From Schizochytrium sp. TIO01 (taxonomy: Eukaryota; Sar; Bigyra; Thraustochytrida; Thraustochytriidae): a DNA stretch of 64,000 nucleotides. The position numbers and the translations under genes were made by a program. The notes beneath the pieces are model-generated. The model was given only the letters and a program-made list of their open reading frames with translations, had not been told where the DNA came from and did not search any database. The stretch is from the NCBI GenBank assembly GCA_004764695.1, contig SMSO01000032.1, forward strand, positions 394,501 through 458,500. The letters run 5' to 3'. Positions 11,510 through 38,103 of this stretch are shown here, piece after piece (the first letter of the stretch is position 1; the number at the start of each line of letters is the position of its first letter).

Positions 11510-13927
11510 TTAGTTCTCAACCTTTTCACCGACAACCTCAACCTCAATGTCAAGGCCAGAGCCATCAGCGGCCGGTGAGATGGTAATGTGGGAAGCATCG
11601 AGAATGTCGCCCTTGAGAAGCTTCGTAGCAAGCGGGGAAAGGAGCTTGCGCTGGATCACACGACGTAAGGGACGCGCACCGTACGCTGGGTCGTAAGAAG
11701 CCTCAGCGAGCCAGTCCACAGCACCAGGGGCAACCTCGAGCTCGATGTTCCGGTCATCCTTGAGACGCTTCTTAATCTCGTCAAGCTGGATCTCCACAAT
11801 ACGGTCCATATCCTCACGACGCAAACGGTTGAAGATGGAGATCTCATCCACACGGTTGAGCAACTCCGGAGAGAAGAAGGCACGCACGCGTTCCATCACG
11901 AGCTCACGAACGGCCTCATCCTGTGCAGTAGCAGTGTTCGAGGCAAGGACATCGCTACCAAGATTTGAGGTCATGATGACAATAGTGTTACGGAAATCAA
12001 CGGTGCGACCGTGGGAGTCGGTAAGGCGTCCTTCATCAAAAAGCTGGAGGAGAATGTTGGAGACATCGCGGTGAGCCTTCTCAAACTCGTCAAGAAGAAT
12101 GATCTGGTACGGCTTACGACGAACTGCCTCAGTCAAAGTGCCACCTTCCTCGTAGCCAACATAGCCGGGGGGAGCACCAATGAGACGCGAGACGGAGTGC
12201 TTTTCCATGTACTCGGACATGTCGATACGGCAAATTGCGGACTCGTCATCAAAGAGAGATTGAGCGAGAGCCTTCACAGACTCGGTCTTACCGACACCAG
12301 TGGGTCCCAAGAAGAGAAAGACTCCCTGAGGTCTGCTGTGACCATGAAGACCAGCACGGCTCTGGCGAATGCAGTCTGCAACAGCATCGATAGCCTCGTC
12401 TTGACCTACAATACGCTTGCGGAGGGTCTCGTCAAGGTGCAAGAGCTTTTCGCGCTCACCGTGCATCAAGGAAGCAATGGGAATGCCAGTAGCGTGGGCC
12501 ACAACCTGAGTAATAAGGTCGCGTGTGACCGAATCCTCGAGCATGTTAGAGGACGAGGCAGCATTTTCAACCTCGGCAGAGTCCTCACGCGCAGCCTTGG
12601 CCTCGAGGTCTGGGATAATGCTGAAGCGGAGCTCACCTGCACGCTCAAAGTTGCCCTGCTTCTGGGCACGCTGGAGCTCGAGTTTGGCCTCTTCAAGACG
12701 AGACTTGGCGCCCTTGACTTCCTCGAGGCGGTTCTTCTCGCTCTGCCACTCATCACTGAGTTTCTTAAGCTCCTCTTCCATCTTGTCAACGTCAACCTGA
12801 ATCTTCTTGCGGCGATCGACTGAACCTGGGTCGGTCTCCTTCTTGAGAGCCTCGAGCTCAATACGCTTAGTGACAATGTCGCGCTCGAGCTTCCAGATGG
12901 GCTCAGGCTTAGACTCTTGCTGCATTCGCAAGCGACTGGCAGCCTCGTCGACAAGATCAATAGCCTTGTCAGGCATCTTGCGATCAGTCAAGTACCGATC
13001 GGCGAGAGTTGCTGCAGCCACGAGGGCCTCATCCTTAATGGTAACACCATGATGGATTTCGTACTTCTCCTTGAGGCCTCGAAGAATGGAAATAGTATCC
13101 TCCACGTTGGGCTCATCGACCAGCACAGGTTGGAAGCGGCGAGCAAGAGCAGCATCCTTCTCCACATACTGGCGGTACTCATCAAGGGTGGTGGCTCCAA
13201 TGCATCGGAGCTCGCCACGGGCAAGAGCAGGCTTGAGGATATTTGCAGCACTGACGGAGCCGTCTCCACCACCTGCACCCATGAGCATGTGGAGCTCATC
13301 AATGAAGAGGATGACCTTACCATCGCTCTCCTCGACGTCCTTCAGCACAGACTTGAGACGCTCCTCGAACTCACCTCTAAACTTAGCACCTGCCACGAGT
13401 GCCGCAAGGTCAAGAGAGACCACACGTTTGTCTTTAAGAGATTCAGGAACCTCTCCAGAGTAAATACGTTGAGCCACAAGTTCTGCTACAGCTGTTTTAC
13501 CCGTACCAGGGTTACCAATAAGCACAGGGTTGTTCTTGGTGCGCCTTGAGATGACTTGGATTACACGACGCAATTCGGCCTCACGACCAATCACCGGGTC
13601 CAGCTTGCCCTCCTTGGCACGTTCCGTAAGATCCACACCGTACTTTTTCAAGTTCTCTCCTTTGGGGGCAGCTCCAGGAGCCACCCATGGCTGCGATGGC
13701 GGTCCTCCGTGTTGCCAACGCCTCTGTTGGAGATGCGAAGAGTTTTTAGAGTTCGTCAACGCCGAGTTAAGCGAGCCTCCAAGTTGCTGTGTCATTGCTG
13801 CCATTGCAAATCTCGAGCGGGAGATCTGCGCAGGTGAGTTGTTCGCGAGCACCGATAGGTCACGACGCGTTGCCATGCGAGCCATCCGCGCAGGCCCTTC
13901 CGCACGACGAGCGGCGAATCTGAACAT
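11510..13927 (-). CDS. HSP78: Mitochondrial ClpB-type disaggregase (Hsp78)
   Basis: The 805-residue AAA+ chaperone opens with a ~90-residue Arg/Ser/Ala-rich presequence ([19 protein letters not shown]) and goes straight into NBD1 ([20 protein letters not shown]). The Clp N-domain is absent, as in yeast Hsp78. NBD1 has Walker A GNPGTGKT and Walker [17 protein letters not shown] coiled-coil middle domain lies at about 360-490. NBD2 has Walker A GPTGVGKT, Walker [12 protein letters not shown], pore loop [11 protein letters not shown], and the sensor-2 region [11 protein letters not shown]. The first pore loop reads [12 protein letters not shown], with Phe where ClpB normally has Tyr. The protein would act in the mitochondrial matrix with Hsp70 (Ssc1-type) to recover aggregated proteins. 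A 270-codon antisense frame inside the gene is a codon-bias shadow. Confidence 0.95.
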
Positions 13928-28160: not shown

Positions 28161-28850
28161 CTAATTTCTCTTCGATCTTCTCTTCACGTAGTTAATAATC
28201 TTTGTTTTCATAGCATTTTCACGGGCAAGCAAATGATGTTCAACAATCATCATGTTTGTGGCTTCATCCTAAAATGCACAGCCGTTTTCTCATCTCCTAC
28301 CCACATAGGCGAATGTCTTACCGCAATCTTATTATCTCTTGAAGTCGGCTAATTGCATAGTTCCGGAATTCCGGGATTAATTTATGACCCTTGTAAGGGT
28401 CAGCAAACTTCGGAGCCTTTCTCTCATCGAGTGGACGAGACTGCGAAGAAAGTAAGACTACATAGGTTCTTCTCGCGAAGGCGGAGGCGCCAGCGACGAG
28501 AGAGACCCCTCTACCGCGAGCACGGTTGCTCTGCAGTGTGTCTCCCCTTAGTTCCACAGTTACAGGGTTACTTTTGGCTGTCTGAGCCGTGCGATCACTC
28601 GGATCAAGTGGAGATCAATCTTTTCGGAGCCACTTGGTTGCTCAGTCCAGCGCTGCAAAGTCACGCACCCCTCATTTCTGCATTCAACAATACGCTTGAC
28701 ATAAGGCTGAGCAGATATAGACTTCAAAGTCTTGATTTTTCTTCTGGGGTTTTCTTCAAAGTTTTGGGCAGCCGGCGGTTTCGTGACTTGCAATAGTTTG
28801 TGCTTCAATATGACAGAAATCCTGGCTGAGGTTTCGCATGCTTTGCGCAC
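28161..28850 (-). CDS. Small spliced gene candidate, LYR-family-like C-terminus
   Basis: Three minus-strand segments look coding. The upstream segment (to 28572) ends IDLHLIRVIARLRQPK at a GTAACC donor; the intron is 28571-28531 (41 bases, ...CACTGCAG). The middle exon is 28530-28322, in phase, with FARRTY then KFADPYKGHKL and IPEFRNYAISRLQEIIRLR. A GTAAGA donor follows, with the intron at 28321-28269 ending TTTTAG. The last segment, 28268-28161, reads NMMIVEHHLLARENAMKTKI and ends YVKRRSKRN-stop, but it is one base out of phase with the middle exon. FRNYAISRLQ followed by a basic helical tail resembles the FReYAlrRi core of mitochondrial LYR (Complex1_LYR) proteins, which help Fe-S and respiratory complex assembly. 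The LYR tripeptide and the start codon were not located. Gene structure is therefore tentative, as is the family. It lies head-to-head with RRN3. Confidence 0.4.
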
Positions 28851-31161
28851 TAAAGTTGACAGAAGCCCAACTTCCTCTCAGTCTGCATATGACTCTCTCA
28901 TGGAAGAGCTGAGGACTGGCGAGGACCCTCAACGTTTCTGCGCTCTGTTCCGAGCTCTTGGTCAAAATGCAGCACTTATCGCTAAGAACCACGCAAGTTT
29001 TGAGGACCTATTGGCTTTGACGTTTGTCTTTAACTGGACATTCGAGGACTCTGTATGTGAATCATTTGAGCTCTTCTTACGTAACTTAGTCTCCGCTCAT
29101 GCAGGTTTCCTACAGCCTGTACTGGAGCTTCTCATCAAGAACTTTTTCCCTCCAGGAGCAAGCTTAGAGGCAACTGCAGGTCGACTTGGAGAAGATGATT
29201 TTGACGATGACGACGATGAGGACGAGGAAACCGGAGGACTCAATGGTGAGCAACTTGCTCACAGAGCAGAGCGAGTTCACAACACCATCAGGTCCATTTT
29301 GCGGATCTTGCCTCTTGGGTGCACGACGCTGCTGTCTGTGCTTTTGGCAACCTTTCCCAAGCACCGACACTCTACTTCGCTACAAAAGGCTTACTTTGAG
29401 CAGGTGCTGCGAGTTTGCGACTATGTCCCTATTTTGCGAGACCGCATCCTTGCAGCTGCTGTGGAAAAGCTGCTTCATCTTGACGCACTCGTGCGCATCG
29501 ACGAGCTAGAACAGCAGCAGGAAGCCATGGCTGAGGCAAATGCTATCAGTGGCGGTAGCAACGCAGTCTTCTCCATGGAGGAGGACGACGAGCTCAACAA
29601 CAATAATATCGAAGGAGATGTTGATGCCTCCATGGCTGGAACAGGGTCAGATTCTCAGGCAGCAGAAAATGTTCCGCTTGCTTCACAGGACCCAGCTGTG
29701 GCAGCAGATCTTGCCCTGATTCGCGAGTACGCCGATAAACTAGATGTACTGCTAGATCTTTTCTTTCAGTACGCAGACTTGCAAATCGATGCACGTGGGA
29801 GAACAGCGGACATTTTTGTAAATCTAATGCTCAATATCTTTGACCGTATGATCTTGCCCCGTCGCAACGTAAGTAGCACCCAGTACATCATCTTTTACGT
29901 TTGCCGTAAGCGTCCAGAGTGGGTTGATCGCTTTCTGCAGCGCCTAGCTGAACGTGCCTTGAATCTGGCCAATAACACCCCAGCGCCGGTGCGCTTTAAC
30001 GCTGCTAGCTACCTGGCTAGCTTCCTCGCCAGAGCCCTATATGTAAGCAAGGAAGCTTGCGAGAACGCAGTTAGTCTCATGTTCCGTTTTCTAATGGATT
30101 ATGACCAGAGGTTTGTCACTAACAATGCTGGAGCCATTGCAAAAGGAGGTTTTGTCATTAACCCTGCGGAGCATATCCAATTTTTAGCTGTGGCTCAGGC
30201 TGTTGTGTACATTCTTACCTTTAAAGGAAACGACTTCTCGCCTGAAACCCTGCACAAGTATGATCTTGGGAAGTTGGTTAACTCTCCCTTGAGTCCACAA
30301 GCATATATTTCAGAGGATATTGTTGCCGAGTTTGCTCGCTTTGCTTCTGCGCAGCAGATGCTTTCACAGGCTGATCTCGATATGCTCATGAGTGGTGTTC
30401 AGGCTTCGCGGAAAGTGGATGCGAATGGCCACACCCGCTTGCAGCATGGCGCAGAACGTCGCGAGGTTTTGCACGCCTTGTCTACACACTACCCATTTGA
30501 TCCGTGTGTTTTGAAAAGGACTGCTACACGTGTGGCACCACTGTACCAGTACTGGTTCAGTAGTGAAGGTGGACTCCATGCTGATGAGTACGAAACAGCT
30601 CAAGCAGACATTGATACCTCTATGGCCACAGAGGAAGCCTCAGAAGCAGAATCGGATGTCGATGCCCCTGCACTTGGTGATGATGAGATTAGGGATGCTC
30701 AGAGACGTCTTCCCCCTGCTATTCAAATTCCTGGTCTTTCAGAACGTGCTGCCCGCATTCTAAGCCAACTTGGTGCCTTGAACCATTCTCCAAAATCTTC
30801 CGGTGGAAGGTACAATGGCTCAGATTTGATCGGTAACAATTTCTGGGCCTTGGATAATGTCGTGTCGACATCTCTTGCATCATCTCATGATGATGCGATG
30901 TCTTTCACGAGTAGCAGCTACCCACGTGGGGCATCCCCGTCAGGAAGCTCGATGGCAGCTGTTGCGGCATCAAACTTTGGTGGCGAGCCTGGTTCCATGC
31001 GCTCTGAGCAATCTGTCCCTTCCTCCTTAGGCTCTCAGATTTCTTCCACGCCCCCTCTTTTGGCACCTAAGACTCTGCCAATTTCTGTCCCTGAGAACAA
31101 ACATATGAAAGATGAAGATGAAGATGACAACAGTGACAACGAGCTTGCGGGCTCGTGGTAA
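28810..31161 (+). CDS. RRN3: RRN3 (TIF-IA), RNA polymerase I transcription initiation factor
   Basis: The ATG at 28810 is the first Met that suits (MTEILAEVSHAL), giving 783 residues, somewhat longer than the ~630-650 usual for RRN3. The core is an all-helical HEAT-like fold. Recognisable blocks are the segment around LPLGCTTLLSVLLATFPKHR (about 165-185), AVEKLLHLDAL, the DVLLDLFFQYADL helix (about 310-325), FYVCRKRPEWVDRFLQRL, RFNAASYLASFLARALYV (strongly conserved), and ALSTHYPFDPCVLKRT near 560. RRN3 bridges the Pol I stalk to the core factor (SL1/CF) and sets rRNA synthesis by TOR/MAPK phosphorylation. Acidic inserts occur at about 125-140 and 255-300. The C-terminal ~170 residues are Ser-rich and acidic, a plausible regulatory tail. 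The gene lies immediately beside a divergent small gene. Confidence 0.9.
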   Translation: MTEILAEVSHALRTKVDRSPTSSQSAYDSLMEELRTGEDPQRFCALFRALGQNAALIAKNHASFEDLLALTFVFNWTFEDSVCESFELFLRNLVSAHAGFLQPVLELLIKNFFPPGASLEATAGRLGEDDFDDDDDEDEETGGLNGEQLAHRAERVHNTIRSILRILPLGCTTLLSVLLATFPKHRHSTSLQKAYFEQVLRVCDYVPILRDRILAAAVEKLLHLDALVRIDELEQQQEAMAEANAISGGSNAVFSMEEDDELNNNNIEGDVDASMAGTGSDSQAAENVPLASQDPAVAADLALIREYADKLDVLLDLFFQYADLQIDARGRTADIFVNLMLNIFDRMILPRRNVSSTQYIIFYVCRKRPEWVDRFLQRLAERALNLANNTPAPVRFNAASYLASFLARALYVSKEACENAVSLMFRFLMDYDQRFVTNNAGAIAKGGFVINPAEHIQFLAVAQAVVYILTFKGNDFSPETLHKYDLGKLVNSPLSPQAYISEDIVAEFARFASAQQMLSQADLDMLMSGVQASRKVDANGHTRLQHGAERREVLHALSTHYPFDPCVLKRTATRVAPLYQYWFSSEGGLHADEYETAQADIDTSMATEEASEAESDVDAPALGDDEIRDAQRRLPPAIQIPGLSERAARILSQLGALNHSPKSSGGRYNGSDLIGNNFWALDNVVSTSLASSHDDAMSFTSSSYPRGASPSGSSMAAVAASNFGGEPGSMRSEQSVPSSLGSQISSTPPLLAPKTLPISVPENKHMKDEDEDDNSDNELAGSW

Positions 31162-31832: not shown

Positions 31833-33302
31833 TTAAAAAGTCTCATTCTCAATAAGACGGCGAATCATTTCGAAAGCCTGTTCCGGGGCAGTTTCAGGCA
31901 CTTCATGACGCCCTCCCTTCACAGTTGTCACCACGAAACGGTTGCCCTTTTCGGGGGTCTTGTAGTCAATCGCATAGCCAGCTACCTGAGGACCAAGGCC
32001 ATCCTTTGGCGTGTACGTCCAAGGGTGCCAAGCCTTGGTGCGCTCAAAGCCAAGCTTTTTTGTCCACCCGAAGGCATCGGTCCAGGGTACACAAGCATCC
32101 CAGTCACCGTTGTAGATAATAATACGGTCAAGGTACTCTACCAGAGCAGGGTACAAGTCACGCGGGAGATTCTCACGGTTGCTCGTGTAATTCTTCAGTT
32201 GGTTCGAGCAAGTGCCCCAAACAAAGGGTTGCTTCTTGACATGGAACGCATGCATGACCTCAGGGATCGTAAGATAGTTGGTCGCAGCACGAGAATCAAT
32301 GCAGGCCACAGGGCCATCCCACGCACCTAGCTCGCGAGCCATGCGCGGTGTCATGGACGGTTCCTTAAGCAAAGTATGGTGACGAGATCCAATGGGCGCC
32401 TTGAAGCCGACAGTCGTGCCATTGTAGCATTCACCATAAACGTTGTACAAGTTAACATTACCTACCTCAGAGTGCATTTTGGCAAGCGACTCGGCGCACG
32501 CTCCCTTTGCATTGGGAAATTGCCCAGTAAAGTCGCCGCACGTAGCGCGGAGCTCAGCCTTGATATCCTCAGAGATAAGAGCAGTCTGGCTTAAGAATGG
32601 TGCAACGTACTGCTCACGTTGAGTTCCATCTGCACAAGCGCCCACTTGGTTCCCAGAGCATCCATTGCCAACGGCCATACCAATGAGTTTGGCACCATCG
32701 TACTTCCCAGCCTTATCTGCTTTCATGATAGCCTCTGCAAGTGTCGGCACGTAAACTCCTGCATAAGACTCACCGGAGAGGAAGAAGGGGGAGCTCTTGA
32801 GCTCTGGGTACAGGGAGAAGAACTTCTGGATGGCTGCAAGATTATCATTGGCGGTCTTGTCATCGTTTGTGTAATAGTCAGCTGCAGGATCATCAGAGTA
32901 ACTGAAGCCAACACCTACGGGCGCCTCAAGGTACAGCATGTGCGCCATTTTCGTCCATGCGAACTCGAAGGGCGTAAGCTTGCCGGGCTCCTCGACGGTC
33001 ACGCGGAATGGGCCATTCTCGTAGAGAAGGCCGTCAAGAGAAGAACATCCAGGGCCACCGTTAAACCAAGCAACGAGAGGAAGAGTCTCATCAGTTGAAC
33101 TAGCCTTTTCGCTTTCAATGTAGACGTAGTGGATGTGCTTTCGCCCATTGGCGATATCTAGATAGCCTGAGTACATCTTCAGAGGGGGGCCATCGTATCC
33201 CGGGATTTCGTGAACACGATCTTTCTCCACGGCAGACTCCGCGCCCATGATCAAGGCAAGGTAGGCGACTACGAGGAGCACAAGGGCGGAAAATTGCGTC
33301 AT
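31833..33302 (-). CDS. Secreted/vacuolar serine carboxypeptidase (peptidase family S10)
   Basis: The 489-residue protein has a signal peptide (MTQFSALVLLVVAYLALIMG, cleavage near 20-24). The S10 blocks appear in order: LVAWFNGGPGCSSLDGLLYE (oxyanion-hole region, about 77-96), LYLEAPVGVGFSYS, the nucleophile elbow GESYAGVYVP (Ser179), the catalytic Asp in YNGDWDACVPW (about 413) and the catalytic His in VKGGRHEVPE (about 470). Several Cys are available for the family disulfides, and a few NxT/NxS sequons are present (for example YNGT, ENETF). It removes C-terminal residues at acid pH in the lysosome/vacuole or after secretion. Length and layout match plant and yeast carboxypeptidases. The C-terminus ENETF shows no retention signal. 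Confidence 0.93.
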   Translation of the reverse strand: MTQFSALVLLVVAYLALIMGAESAVEKDRVHEIPGYDGPPLKMYSGYLDIANGRKHIHYVYIESEKASSTDETLPLVAWFNGGPGCSSLDGLLYENGPFRVTVEEPGKLTPFEFAWTKMAHMLYLEAPVGVGFSYSDDPAADYYTNDDKTANDNLAAIQKFFSLYPELKSSPFFLSGESYAGVYVPTLAEAIMKADKAGKYDGAKLIGMAVGNGCSGNQVGACADGTQREQYVAPFLSQTALISEDIKAELRATCGDFTGQFPNAKGACAESLAKMHSEVGNVNLYNVYGECYNGTTVGFKAPIGSRHHTLLKEPSMTPRMARELGAWDGPVACIDSRAATNYLTIPEVMHAFHVKKQPFVWGTCSNQLKNYTSNRENLPRDLYPALVEYLDRIIIYNGDWDACVPWTDAFGWTKKLGFERTKAWHPWTYTPKDGLGPQVAGYAIDYKTPEKGNRFVVTTVKGGRHEVPETAPEQAFEMIRRLIENETF

Positions 33303-34812
33303 GGTTGCTTTGCAAAGGTTCTGCTCTGCAAGTCTATATATCTTCTAGTCTTAAACTATCACAGATCTCGTTTAGAAGCAGCGATCAAACACCCAGACTT
33401 CGTAGTGAAGAGGAGATCTCTACAGACCCCCTTGAGGTTTTATTAAAACGAGATCCTTTCGCTTCGGCTCTACAAGAAGAGCAGACAAGCGAAGCGGTAG
33501 TACTTTGGCAACAAGCGATCCCAAAAATATCAAGATTCGAACCAAAGATAGAGCGCTCCGATATCCTCCAGCAAAATTACAACTAGGGTTGTTGTTTAAA
33601 GGCTCTACCAGTCAGCGAGCTCTAGCTAGTTCTGTTCTACCTCGAAAGTAGCGGCACGGCCCACGAGATCGGTCTTGATCCCGCACAACCAATCCGGGTC
33701 TACTGCGATCCTTCCCCGTGTATCTAACTGATTTATTATTTTTTTTATTTTTATTTTTTTTATAAATCCCCTTTAGTTTATTTTCTTGTTATTCTTCTTC
33801 AATAGAAACAGCCTAAATCAAACTCTGTTTCCTAAACTAGGCCGAATTGGTCCTTCTTCAGAACAAGAAACCAATACATCTTATGTTTTGTTATCTAATG
33901 CAGTGGTAACAGAAATCCACAATGCAAAGAACTTGGATCGCGTTGGTGAGGCACACTTCTGAGAGATCAAATCAAAACATCACAGCATCACTTGTAAAAT
34001 ATTATGTCCTGAAAGCTTGTGTATCTCAACGATCAAAGGGAAGGGAAAGTTTGAGACAAATCATTCAGACCTCTGGCTATTTAATGTAAAATATTCTCAC
34101 AGTTTTGGTTCATTGTTCTGCTGTTGCAATCTGAAACCCAAGATGACCATGGTCACTTTGGCTTTACCAGTGGCACGCGGCGATTTCATACCAACGTATT
34201 TGATTATTTGATTCTAAAGGTTCTGTAATTTAATCGATCCAGAAGTATACAATTAAACACTGGCGAATCCTGTCGTCGCGCAACTGGACAAAGTGGGATC
34301 AATTTAGTGGGGAAATTCTGTACTATCGTGCTACATAGTTTCTTTGCTCTTTATATCTCACCAATCTGATATTTTGTCCTGAGCGAGGTCACTCTTATCC
34401 TGCCCACTCAAGCAAAATGACTCTTTTAATCACCTGTTTACTTCAGTGCAAGGTCAAGCTAAAGCATATGCATGCAGCGGTGCATTCCTGAGCTCAAATC
34501 TGTACACCAAATTTTCCACTTGCCAACTCTCCCTTAAGTCGGCTATTTTCATACTCGGAAGCTTTTTGTATTGTAAGCGAATCTGTCTAAATAGAGAATA
34601 AAAACTCATAAAGAGGAAATGAAAATGATAGAAAATGATAGAAAACAGAGAAACCAACAAATCATACTCGAGACCAAAACCCGAGACCGATCCCGCGGCC
34701 TCCGGAGGTGGCGTCTGGAGCGCGAGGGGCGAGGACCTCGCGGTACCCGACGTTCCTTTGATCCTCCTCGCCTTTGAGACAGTTTTGACTTTGGCCCGTG
34801 GCGGCCTACGTG
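33303..34812. other. Divergent promoter region of carboxypeptidase and dual kinase
   Basis: A T-rich run (mostly T with single A) lies at about 33735-33765. The last ~130 bases before 34812 turn sharply GC-rich and are open in several frames, so an alternative or additional 5' coding exon of the kinase gene there is possible. Otherwise nothing is visible. Confidence 0.45.
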
Positions 34813-37800
34813 ATGGCGGAAACGTCGACGACCACCATGGCGGCCTTGGCAGAGGCCTTCTCAAGCCAACTCCGAGGCGGCAGTGAATATACCCAGAGTC
34901 GAAGACTCGAAGGTGAAGGAGAGCAAGTCTTTTTACATGGAAGGAGTCTCGCTACAGATATGAGTGCTAGCTCCATCGTCGCTATTGTCCTTGGAATTCT
35001 ACTTGGTCTCGCTATTGGCGTTATCGTGTTATTGTGGTTTAAAGCACGTGCAAGAAGCTCTCGGAATCAATGGAAATACGCATCAAGTACCGAAGAAGAT
35101 TTTTCCAAGAACCGCAAGTTTACGCAGGGCCCTGATGGAGATGATGTGAACTACGAAGCTGATGCAGAAGGCGATACAGGTCTACGCTCCGAGAGCAAAA
35201 CCCGAAAGCAGAAACCAGTGTGTGCGAGGTCCAAGACACCGCAAATGTCACCTCAAAATGAAGATGTGGATATGGATGATCCTAACCAAACATTTAATGC
35301 AGATGGAGCCCTTATAAATGCCCAGGGTAGCACTCAGACAGACTCTAGAAATTTGAGGAGGCGTGGTCGCAAAACCCCCAATGCGAAGTCTAACCCTGAG
35401 GATGAGTTTTATGGGCGCATTAACGGCTTGAGCGCAGCCTCTGTCTTTGGTATTGATCTCACAAAGCTTAAAATTGGACCTACTATTGGAATGGGCGCTA
35501 ATGGACGTGTTTTCCGTGCTACCTACCTTGGATCTGCAGTGGCGGTCAAGGAGATCATGTCATTTGCGCCAACAGATGACGTCGAGCAGCACTTCATGAC
35601 CGAGCTTGAGGCTTTACGCCGACTTCGCCATCCGCATGTCGTGGAACTCTACGGTGCTGCAGTGAGCCGAAGCCTTGAGTCTGCGCAGCAAATGCGATAT
35701 CTTCTAGTTACAGAGCTGGCACCATGTAGTTTGCGGGATCTACTGGACTCTGATGAGGTTATCACCTTCAAGCAAGCACTACGTCTGGCTACAGAACTCA
35801 GCAAAGGCTGTGCCTACATTCATGCAATGAAGGTAGTCCATTTTGACATTAAGCCTGCAAATGTCTTATTGTCTGATTCAGGAAAAGTCAAGATTTGTGA
35901 TCTGGGCGTCTCGCGCCTCGGAAGTAACGCAGTACAGCAAAAAGGCGGCGAGACAGGAATACGTGGAACACCAACTTATGTAGCCCCAGAGATTATGCGT
36001 GGAAAAACTACAATGCTTTCGTATGGTGTAGATGTATACAGCTTTAGCATCTTGTTTTGGGAACTCTTGCACCGCCGCAACCCATTTCCCAAATCGTGGA
36101 CCTTGGCTGTACTTTTCAATCGTGTTTTAGATGGATACCGCCCCACAATAGGTCCTCTAGTTCCTGCTCGTCTACGCCGCCTCATTATGCAATGCTGGGA
36201 CCCGATTTCTATTCGTCGACCCGAGTTTGAGCAGATTCTTGTTGAGCTTGCGTGGGCAGACAATGAGTTAAGACATCCCGAGCATGCCTTCCTATCCACA
36301 CACCTAGTCGAGGTTTGGTTTGAAAACCAGTTTCGTAAGGGCCGCATCAGTCGCAACGTTGGTATGGGTAACTATGAAGTGGTTCTACACGGAGAAATTG
36401 AAGAGCGCACATTTCCTGCAAGTGAGATTGTGCTTACGGATGGTGGTGGTGGTGTTTCCACAACCAAAGCTGTTGCTGCCCAAGTGGAGGGGAGAGACGA
36501 AGTAGCAGAAGACGGAATTGTTTTCCATGTAGTGAATGATGAAGGCCCCCATACTCGTAGTGGGGGTAGGCGACAGCAACGTAATTCCCGCCAAGCACGC
36601 AGCCCTCGTGTACAACCTGATCCTGGTGGTGAGCATCGAGGCAGCGGTGGTAACAACAGTGACGCTGGGGGGAGCGATAGCCTTATTTCAAGTACTGGAT
36701 CGCGGACCAAAGACATTGCCCGCCGGCTAGCAGGGAAGCGAGGTTGGCGCAAGGGCGACACGGAGAGCAGCGAGGGTTGGCAAACCACGAGTACAGGATT
36801 CACAACAACATCAAACACACCAACACCAACTTCTAAAATTAGTGGCTCATCTGGTACAGATGATCTCTTAAGTGACGAAGCAAGTTGGACGAAGGATAAT
36901 TACTCGGTCGATATTGAAGGCATTCGTATTGGCGAATACGGTATAATGACTCCAACAGGGCAGGACGAAGATGATAACATAGGCGGAGGAGGTTTATCTA
37001 ATACCCACCGTGGTAATTTTCGTGTTGATCTAGTCATGCTCAACGAGATCGGCCGTGGAGCCTCTGGTGTGGTTCATCGAGCTTTGCAACTACAAAGCTT
37101 CCAGCTTGTAGCGCTAAAGTCGATCCGTGTAAAGGATAGCTTGAGCCGTTATCAAATTGCCAAGGAAATTCGAGCACTTGACGCTGTGGTGAAGACATCC
37201 ACAGCAAATGAGGCAACCTCTACTCTAACACAAATGTTTGGTGCCTATTGGGAGCCCGAAGATGCATCTGTTCGCATTGTCCTTGAGTACATGGATGGTG
37301 GAAGTTGTGATGATATGCTTATCAATTGGCGGCCACCTTCTGAACACATGCTGGCTGCTATAGCAATTGGTACTCTCAAGGGTATGCAACAATTGCATTC
37401 TTCATTTCGTCTGCATCGCGATATCAAACCCGCCAATATTCTAATTGACAAAAGCAAGGGAGCTAAACTCTCTGATCTAGGTCTTGCTCGTGATCTGATG
37501 GCACAGGAAGGTGCAAAAGATAACATTAACGATGCGCTAGCCGAGACTTTTGTAGGTACAATATCTTATATGAGCCCAGAGCGCCTCGAGGGTAAATCTT
37601 ACAGTTATGCAGCTGATGTCTGGGCTCTGGGTATCACATTAACAGCGCTTGGCCTAGGCCGTAATCCGTTTCGGAACTACAGCTTTTTCCAGCTACTTGA
37701 ACACTTCCAAGAGTCTACTGTACCAGAGATTCCCGCCCTGTACAGCGACTTACTTCACGACTTTATTGCGCAATGTACCCAGAAGGCACCGCAAGACCGT

Positions 37801-38103
37801 CCAACTACAGAACAACTCCTCAATCACCCCTGGGTCACCCAGTACGAGCGTGGCGAGAAACCTGATCCACTTGGGTTTTTGCGACAGTACATTACGGAGG
37901 CCTCAGAAGGTTCTCGCTATAAACGCAATGATCTTAATTATATTGCTGCCCGTGTCAACGAACACCTCCGTCAATATGTCGGTAGCCAGAACAATGACTC
38001 GCCTACGCAAGTTGTTGTACCTTTATCGAAAGTACGCAGGCTTGCAACACAGCTTGACTTGCCGACACGGCACGTCATCAAAGGATTTAAAACCCGCAAG
38101 TAA
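34813..38103 (+). CDS. Single-pass membrane protein with tandem TKL/MAP3K-like and MAP2K-like kinase domains
   Basis: From the ATG at 34813 the protein has 1096 residues. A short N-terminal region (about 1-53) has no signal peptide. It is followed by one membrane helix (about 54-76, IVAIVLGILLGLAIGVIVLL) with basic residues after it, so the kinases are cytosolic. Kinase 1 (about 218-490) has IGMGANGRVF, VAVKE, HFDIKPANVL (His-Phe-Asp, not HRD), DLG for DFG, and GTPTYVAPEIM; its closest look is TKL/Raf-like. An SH3/Tudor-like strand-rich piece follows (about 497-545, VWFENQFRKGRIS). A Gly/Ser/Thr-rich linker then leads to kinase 2 (about 737-1015): IGRGASGVVHRA, VALKSI, HRDIKPANIL, DLG, TFVGTISYMSPERLEGKSYS, typical of MAP2K. 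Near the C-terminus KVRRLATQLDL fits a MAPK docking motif. Both kinases keep the Lys and Asp needed for catalysis. The true N-terminus is uncertain. Confidence 0.88.
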   Translation: MAETSTTTMAALAEAFSSQLRGGSEYTQSRRLEGEGEQVFLHGRSLATDMSASSIVAIVLGILLGLAIGVIVLLWFKARARSSRNQWKYASSTEEDFSKNRKFTQGPDGDDVNYEADAEGDTGLRSESKTRKQKPVCARSKTPQMSPQNEDVDMDDPNQTFNADGALINAQGSTQTDSRNLRRRGRKTPNAKSNPEDEFYGRINGLSAASVFGIDLTKLKIGPTIGMGANGRVFRATYLGSAVAVKEIMSFAPTDDVEQHFMTELEALRRLRHPHVVELYGAAVSRSLESAQQMRYLLVTELAPCSLRDLLDSDEVITFKQALRLATELSKGCAYIHAMKVVHFDIKPANVLLSDSGKVKICDLGVSRLGSNAVQQKGGETGIRGTPTYVAPEIMRGKTTMLSYGVDVYSFSILFWELLHRRNPFPKSWTLAVLFNRVLDGYRPTIGPLVPARLRRLIMQCWDPISIRRPEFEQILVELAWADNELRHPEHAFLSTHLVEVWFENQFRKGRISRNVGMGNYEVVLHGEIEERTFPASEIVLTDGGGGVSTTKAVAAQVEGRDEVAEDGIVFHVVNDEGPHTRSGGRRQQRNSRQARSPRVQPDPGGEHRGSGGNNSDAGGSDSLISSTGSRTKDIARRLAGKRGWRKGDTESSEGWQTTSTGFTTTSNTPTPTSKISGSSGTDDLLSDEASWTKDNYSVDIEGIRIGEYGIMTPTGQDEDDNIGGGGLSNTHRGNFRVDLVMLNEIGRGASGVVHRALQLQSFQLVALKSIRVKDSLSRYQIAKEIRALDAVVKTSTANEATSTLTQMFGAYWEPEDASVRIVLEYMDGGSCDDMLINWRPPSEHMLAAIAIGTLKGMQQLHSSFRLHRDIKPANILIDKSKGAKLSDLGLARDLMAQEGAKDNINDALAETFVGTISYMSPERLEGKSYSYAADVWALGITLTALGLGRNPFRNYSFFQLLEHFQESTVPEIPALYSDLLHDFIAQCTQKAPQDRPTTEQLLNHPWVTQYERGEKPDPLGFLRQYITEASEGSRYKRNDLNYIAARVNEHLRQYVGSQNNDSPTQVVVPLSKVRRLATQLDLPTRHVIKGFKTRK

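Follow-up and report, generated by a model that had tools for sequence, protein, structure and literature searches.

Results

A membrane helix and two kinase domains share one reading frame

The window analysed here is a stretch of 64,000 nucleotides from Schizochytrium sp. TIO01. A gene for a protein with two kinase domains lies at positions 34813..38103 (+), as indicated by a single open frame of 1,096 amino acids, by its Pfam domains and by a layout shared with paralogues on contigs C6 and C34. The chain consists of a transmembrane helix, a TKL kinase (kinase 1), a small tail piece, a linker, a MAP2K-like kinase (kinase 2) and a C-terminal element. At the 5′ end the frame is bounded by an in-frame TGA (34786..34788, +) that was read in the sequence. 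Translation could start at the ATG at 34813 or alternatively at a GTG at 34798, and the frame stays open up to the stop ending at 38103. Pfam found PK_Tyr_Ser-Thr at 225-483 and Pkinase at 748-1013, which amounts to two ePK domains in one chain; these limits are counted from the GTG, and all other residue numbers from the ATG. The neighbouring genes in the window encode a ClpB-type AAA protein (11510-13927), RRN3 (28732-31161) and a serine carboxypeptidase (31833-33302), with no evident tie to the dual-kinase gene. The genome as a whole comprises 64 Mb, has mostly long open frames and contains a polyketide-type PUFA synthase (PfaA family) on C4 with a match over the cut-off. Together with the PT-repeat ectodomains described below, these features would fit a thraustochytrid (Labyrinthulomycetes).

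The first-pass annotation had described a transmembrane helix, a first kinase with HFDIKPAN and DLG, a linker and a second kinase on one chain. All these motifs were located where it implied, with HFDIKPAN at residue 343, DLG at 363, HRDIKPAN at 868, DLG at 888, ALAETFVGTISYMSPER at 908 and KVRRLATQLDL at 1073. When the residues were checked, the VAIK lysine, the helix-C glutamate, the catalytic-loop aspartate, the DxG aspartate and the glycine loop were intact in both kinases.

We also considered whether this arrangement could come from two genes read as one or from an error in the gene model. The assembly does contain indels, introns or decay, as seen from the frame changes in L025, L047 and C34. 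Against this, the window frame runs through 1,101 sense codons without a stop (chance about 1e-23 by a simple 61/64 estimate), and the same order of domains is found in the 2,147-aa frame of C6. In addition, the only Met codons between the kinases are 518 and 712, the latter of which falls within the kinase-2 module. Because the same plan recurs in the paralogues, it is neither an accident of the gene model nor a product of two genes, and we regard this explanation as highly improbable. A search of viral contigs revealed no close relatives.

The transmembrane helix comprises residues 55-73 (34975..35031, +) and is the sole segment of its kind in the protein, with a Kyte-Doolittle value of 3.19. 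It is followed by the basic stretch KARARSSR, so that both kinases are predicted to be cytoplasmic. The 54 residues ahead of the helix hold no signal-like segment; the C6 and C34 paralogues have both such a segment and a sizeable ectodomain. It is possible that a 5′ exon, so far unseen, lies upstream of the window gene.

Kinase 1 belongs to the TKL group

Kinase 1 covers residues 213-486 (35449..36270, +) and was assigned to the TKL group by Pfam (PK_Tyr_Ser-Thr), by profile matches and by its position in a tree. Its catalytic loop, HFDIKPAN (35839..35862, +; motif position and residue check), is non-RD (HFD), and its residues predict an active kinase. When kinase 1 alone was compared with the PDB, the best matches were TAK1, MLT/ZAK and CTR1, aside from an EGFR record with two kinase copies. 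A profile built from seven related domains of the same genome gave TAK1 (199 bits), CTR1 (189 bits) and ZAK/MLT (170 bits). In a maximum-likelihood tree of 45 domains, kinase 1 fell into the TKL clade together with TAK1 and the TKL kinases of the genome itself (100/100), in line with the MAP3K/TKL-like kinase that had been proposed. MAP3Ks are a functional class, whose members phosphorylate and activate a MAP2K, and several of them belong to the TKL group; what makes kinase 1 a candidate MAP3K is its kinship to this group.

Directly after kinase 1, a small tail piece (residues 491-544; 36283..36444, +) aligned in five TKL paralogues, where it occupies the same position and has one invariant tryptophan. 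This piece had been called SH3/Tudor-like. Its conservation as a tail is clear from the paralogues, and the likeness to that fold is one of pattern only: the best Pfam match was the 53BP1 Tudor domain, under the cut-off (E=0.097), and a single-sequence AlphaFold model reached a pLDDT of 46 and was set aside. A linker rich in Gly, Ser, Thr and Arg, and flexible as judged by its composition, follows at residues 546-697 (36448..36903, +).

Kinase 2 falls within the MAP2K clade

Kinase 2, an RD kinase with the catalytic loop HRDIKPAN (37414..37437, +; motif position and residue check), covers residues 736-1015 (37018..37857, +). It is likewise predicted from its residues to be active. Searched alone against the PDB, it matched MEK1 (133 bits) and STK25 (127 bits), and a six-member kinase-2 profile matched MEK1 (278 bits), the plant-type MKK5 (244 bits) and MST1 (230 bits). 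With a profile from the three catalytically intact receptor kinase 2s, MEK1, MEK2 and dSOR1 led the best 40 matches at 172-185 bits, and PAK and MST came behind at about 147-150 bits. A position outside the MAP2K clade would have spoken against the proposed identity of kinase 2. Instead, the 45-domain tree joined it to MEK1, to four free MAP2K-like kinases and to L011, the genome's short MAP2K (100/99), and the genome's STE20-like and STE11-like kinases fell elsewhere.

The activation segment of kinase 2 contains SYMSPER, as in MAP2Ks, and DLG replaces DFG. MAP2Ks have two activation-loop phosphosites, spaced S/T-x3-S/T in animals and S/T-x5-S/T in plants. In alignment with MEK1, the corresponding positions in the window protein (37534..37548, +) are Ala908, opposite MEK1 Ser218, and Thr912, opposite Ser222. 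Only the second site is thus of the phosphorylatable kind, since the first position has Ala908/Asn906 in place of a serine or threonine. The kinase-2 module includes an N-terminal strand motif, SVDIEGIRIGEYGIM (36904..36948, +), that aligned with a similar motif in free MAP2K-like kinases; the motif, which reads SVDIEGIRIGEYGI in the window protein, is common to the receptor and the free kinases. A single-sequence AlphaFold model of the module had a pLDDT of 37 and was set aside.

Kinase 2 could also be a diverged relative of the MAP2Ks that no longer has a MAPK as its substrate, so that the protein would combine a receptor TKL kinase with a Ser/Thr kinase of another specificity. Its long branch, with a highest identity of 42% (to a free kinase), the loss of the first phosphosite and the lack of an above-chance D-motif (see below) are in keeping with this idea. 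Its position inside the MAP2K clade and its SYMSPER segment argue against it, and we consider such a change of substrate quite improbable.

The C-terminal element is shared with free MAP2K-like kinases

The protein ends in a conserved C-terminal element, VVVPLSKVRRLATQLDLPTRHVIKGFKTRK (38011..38100, +), which matches tails of free MAP2K-like kinases above shuffled sequences. With a profile of four receptor tails, the tails of L022, L023 and L025 exceeded the shuffles (0, 0 and 1 of 1,000 shuffles, respectively, reached the score), while those of L047 and L011 did not match. The element gave nothing above the cut-off in Pfam. L025 and L047 are free MAP2K-like genes, and each shifts frame inside its kinase domain through an assembly indel, a small intron or decay.

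KVRRLATQLDL lies within this element and had been put forward as a D-motif for MAPK docking. The letters are present, but ELM-type docking matches in the whole protein were at chance level (8 starts against 6.2 expected; 4 against 4.2 with the strict pattern). The leucines of KVRRLATQLDL are conserved because they are part of the C-terminal element, and its basic pair is not conserved. As it also sits in an element shared with free MAP2K-like kinases, we rejected the D-motif reading; docking of a MAPK is conceivable but unsupported. D-motifs of MAP2Ks are usually N-terminal, and in the short MAP2K L011 the D-like MRRPGNLTL lies close to the N-terminus. The same ELM-type scan detected no D-motif in the linker ahead of kinase 2.

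Related proteins are encoded elsewhere in the genome

At least two sister proteins in the genome, on C6 and C34, have the same plan of transmembrane helix, TKL kinase and MAP2K-like kinase. One frame of about 2,147 aa encodes the C6 protein (L021). In this protein, a signal-like segment and then a large PT-repeat-rich ectodomain precede one transmembrane helix, a TKL kinase, a tail piece of the same kind as in the window protein and a MAP2K-like kinase. Its TKL kinase has the loop HFDVKCEN and its kinase 2 the non-RD loop HLDIKPAN; this kinase 2 retains both phosphosites as S-x3-T. The C34 protein (L024:271-2619, -) shows the same domain order with a large PT-repeat ectodomain, and its kinase 2 lies in a frame other than that of its TKL kinase. 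This frame change reflects an intron, an assembly indel or a frameshift: 49 GT-AG joins would keep the frame open, and none of those examined began with any of a few favoured donor words. The C34 kinase 2 is a pseudokinase that has lost the catalytic aspartate and the DFG aspartate (HGEVKPSH, GFG).

A further relative on C31 (L056:597-6869, -; G000:C31:2315300-2322600), encoded in a frame of 2,091 aa, lacks a TKL kinase. It joins seven hydrophobic segments to a MAP2K-type kinase whose loop, HLDVKPAN, is non-RD. Its ectodomain gave weak LRR matches. With a MAP2K built into a seven-helix receptor, the C31 protein may be stranger than that of the window gene.

In the 45-domain tree, the receptor kinase 2s formed one group (91/73), with C31 as sister to C6 (99/89). 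The kinase 1s branched as the window protein followed by C6 and C34, with weak support (82/9), and a smaller tree put the window kinase 1 beside L003 with no clear placement. In the best tree, kinase 1s and kinase 2s branch alike, the window protein first and then C6 and C34. The simplest reading of these trees would be one fusion, after which the front half was lost or exchanged in C31. Two fusions are a possible alternative.

The genome also holds other kinase arrangements. In another tandem kinase (L013:1-2310, +; G000:C34:2676940-2680749), a single frame encodes two TKL domains, with the motifs HNDLKSLN and HRDMKSPN. Three TKL kinase matches that are evenly spaced at about 5.3 kb (G000:C30:178551-189818) probably form a tandem gene array. 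Two pairs of kinase frames have identical score and length across contigs (C9:109520 and C33:3536041; C14:87072 and C31:41391) and are probably haplotype copies or duplicated assembly ends.

The C34 protein bears on the question of what kinase 2 does, since a module that persists there without its catalytic residues can evidently be retained for a non-catalytic role. Regulation of a kinase by contact is known from JAK pseudokinase domains and from STRAD. Kinase 2 might similarly be a regulatory or scaffolding module that holds kinase 1 off or on by contact, with kinase 1 giving the output, and an HLD loop, as in the C6 and C31 modules, would suit such a role. We find this unlikely, as the checked catalytic Lys, Glu and Asp are retained in the kinase 2s of the window protein, C6 and C31, and as C31 carries the module without any TKL kinase to regulate.

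Components of an ordinary cascade are present in the same genome

Separate cascade components were found in the genome, namely ERK-like MAPKs, STE11-like kinases and the canonical short MAP2K L011. The ERK-like and STE11-like searches used approximate plant kinase sequences, which served as probes only. Since a separate MAPK, STE11-like kinase and MAP2K exist, the fused proteins supplement the ordinary cascade rather than take its place. These separate parts allow for parallel outputs, in which a soluble MAP3K would activate kinase 2 while kinase 1 serves another branch, and the fusion would merely place a MAP2K-type kinase at the membrane. Besides the STE11-like and free MAP2K-like kinases, the C31 protein, a seven-helix receptor that carries this module but no TKL kinase, fits this arrangement. 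Three genes with a constant order of TKL then MAP2K suggest, on the other hand, that the pairing matters, and parallel outputs therefore seem to us an improbable account.

Discussion

The first-pass annotation was right about a TKL-type kinase 1 and a MAP2K-clade kinase 2 in one chain, and its proposed docking motif was not supported. The reading that we prefer, with a probability of about 0.45, is a membrane-anchored dual kinase in which a receptor-type TKL kinase is joined to a complete MAP2K module and a signal would be relayed from kinase 1 to kinase 2 and on to a MAPK. The analysis shows the single chain, its membrane helix, the family of each kinase, the intact catalytic residues and the recurrence in the genome; the order from kinase 1 to kinase 2, the MAPK output and control by a ligand are what we infer. 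The starting point would be the joining of a receptor-type TKL kinase to a MAP2K kinase domain that brought along its N-terminal strand and its C-terminal element. At the membrane, the non-RD kinase 1 would then be switched on when the receptors cluster or change conformation, and it would phosphorylate the RD-type kinase 2 on Thr912, either in the same chain or across a receptor dimer. Kinase 2 could then pass the signal on to a cytosolic MAPK, for which the ERK-like kinases of the genome are candidates.

Several observations would fit such a relay, namely the shared frame, the TKL and MAP2K placements of the two kinases, the recurrence of the plan with like branching of both kinases in the best tree, the ERK-like MAPKs, the combination of a non-RD kinase 1 with an RD kinase 2, the retention of Thr912 and the presence of both phosphosites in the C6 kinase 2. 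The alanine at the first phosphosite, the lack of an above-chance docking motif and the weakly supported common origin of the kinase 1s (82/9) count against it. Because kinase 2 is non-RD in C6 and C31 and a pseudokinase in C34, the relay cannot serve every member of the family. Ala908, the HLD loops of C6 and C31 and the dead C34 kinase 2 together keep our confidence in the relay below one half. We hold only tentatively to the fuller version, in which one polypeptide would serve as receptor and carry out both the MAP3K and the MAP2K step, kinase 1 would activate kinase 2 within the molecule or dimer, and the MAPK alone would be a separate protein.

In the usual cascade, scaffolds hold MAP3K, MAP2K and MAPK together as separate proteins. 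Engineered Ste11-Ste7 fusions were reportedly made in earlier work. RSK-type kinases, like the window protein, have two kinases per chain, and in them one kinase domain is activated by the other; their domains, however, are of the AGC and CAMK types, and they are soluble and act downstream of ERK. Kinase 2 shares its clade and the SYMSPER activation segment with the MEK1/MAP2K (STE7) family, and differs from it by its membrane chain, its C-terminal element, the alanine at the first phosphosite and the absence of a D-motif before the kinase.

Among the closest counterparts in the literature are those of Dictyostelium, where ZakA and DPYK4 are STE-TKL dual-domain kinases that were read as fusions of distinct domains (PMC1420674). 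They resemble the window protein in having a TKL and a STE-group kinase in one chain, whereas they belong to Dictyostelium-specific families, and the sole Dictyostelium MAP2K is the separate Mek1 (PMC1420674). Dictyostelium 7TMK1, with seven transmembrane helices fused to a kinase, is like the C31 protein, but its kinase is a TKL, while that of C31 is of the MAP2K type and is combined with a weak-LRR ectodomain (PMC1420674). In the Phytophthora infestans kinome, all 99 transmembrane kinases are TKLs, and both domains of each of the three tandem kinases come from the same family (PMC3019232). Its receptor-like TKLs, in oomycete-specific subfamilies, likewise have a transmembrane helix, a short or long ectodomain and a cytoplasmic TKL kinase, but no MAP2K domain is described in the same chain (PMC3019232). 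A text search with partial coverage of the published literature found no natural chain of a TKL/MAP3K and a MAP2K. Relative to the literature found, the membrane chain of TKL and MAP2K kinases appears new, and the oomycete and Dictyostelium kinases as described there differ from it.

Two steps of a relay that normally involves several proteins may reside in one receptor. The relatives stand at different stages, with both kinases intact, with a dead kinase 2, or with a seven-helix receptor in place of the TKL half. A natural chain of a TKL and a MAP2K-type kinase would allow a direct test of tethering in place of scaffolding and amplification between tiers. The family would also reveal how MAP2K modules move among receptors in a protist.
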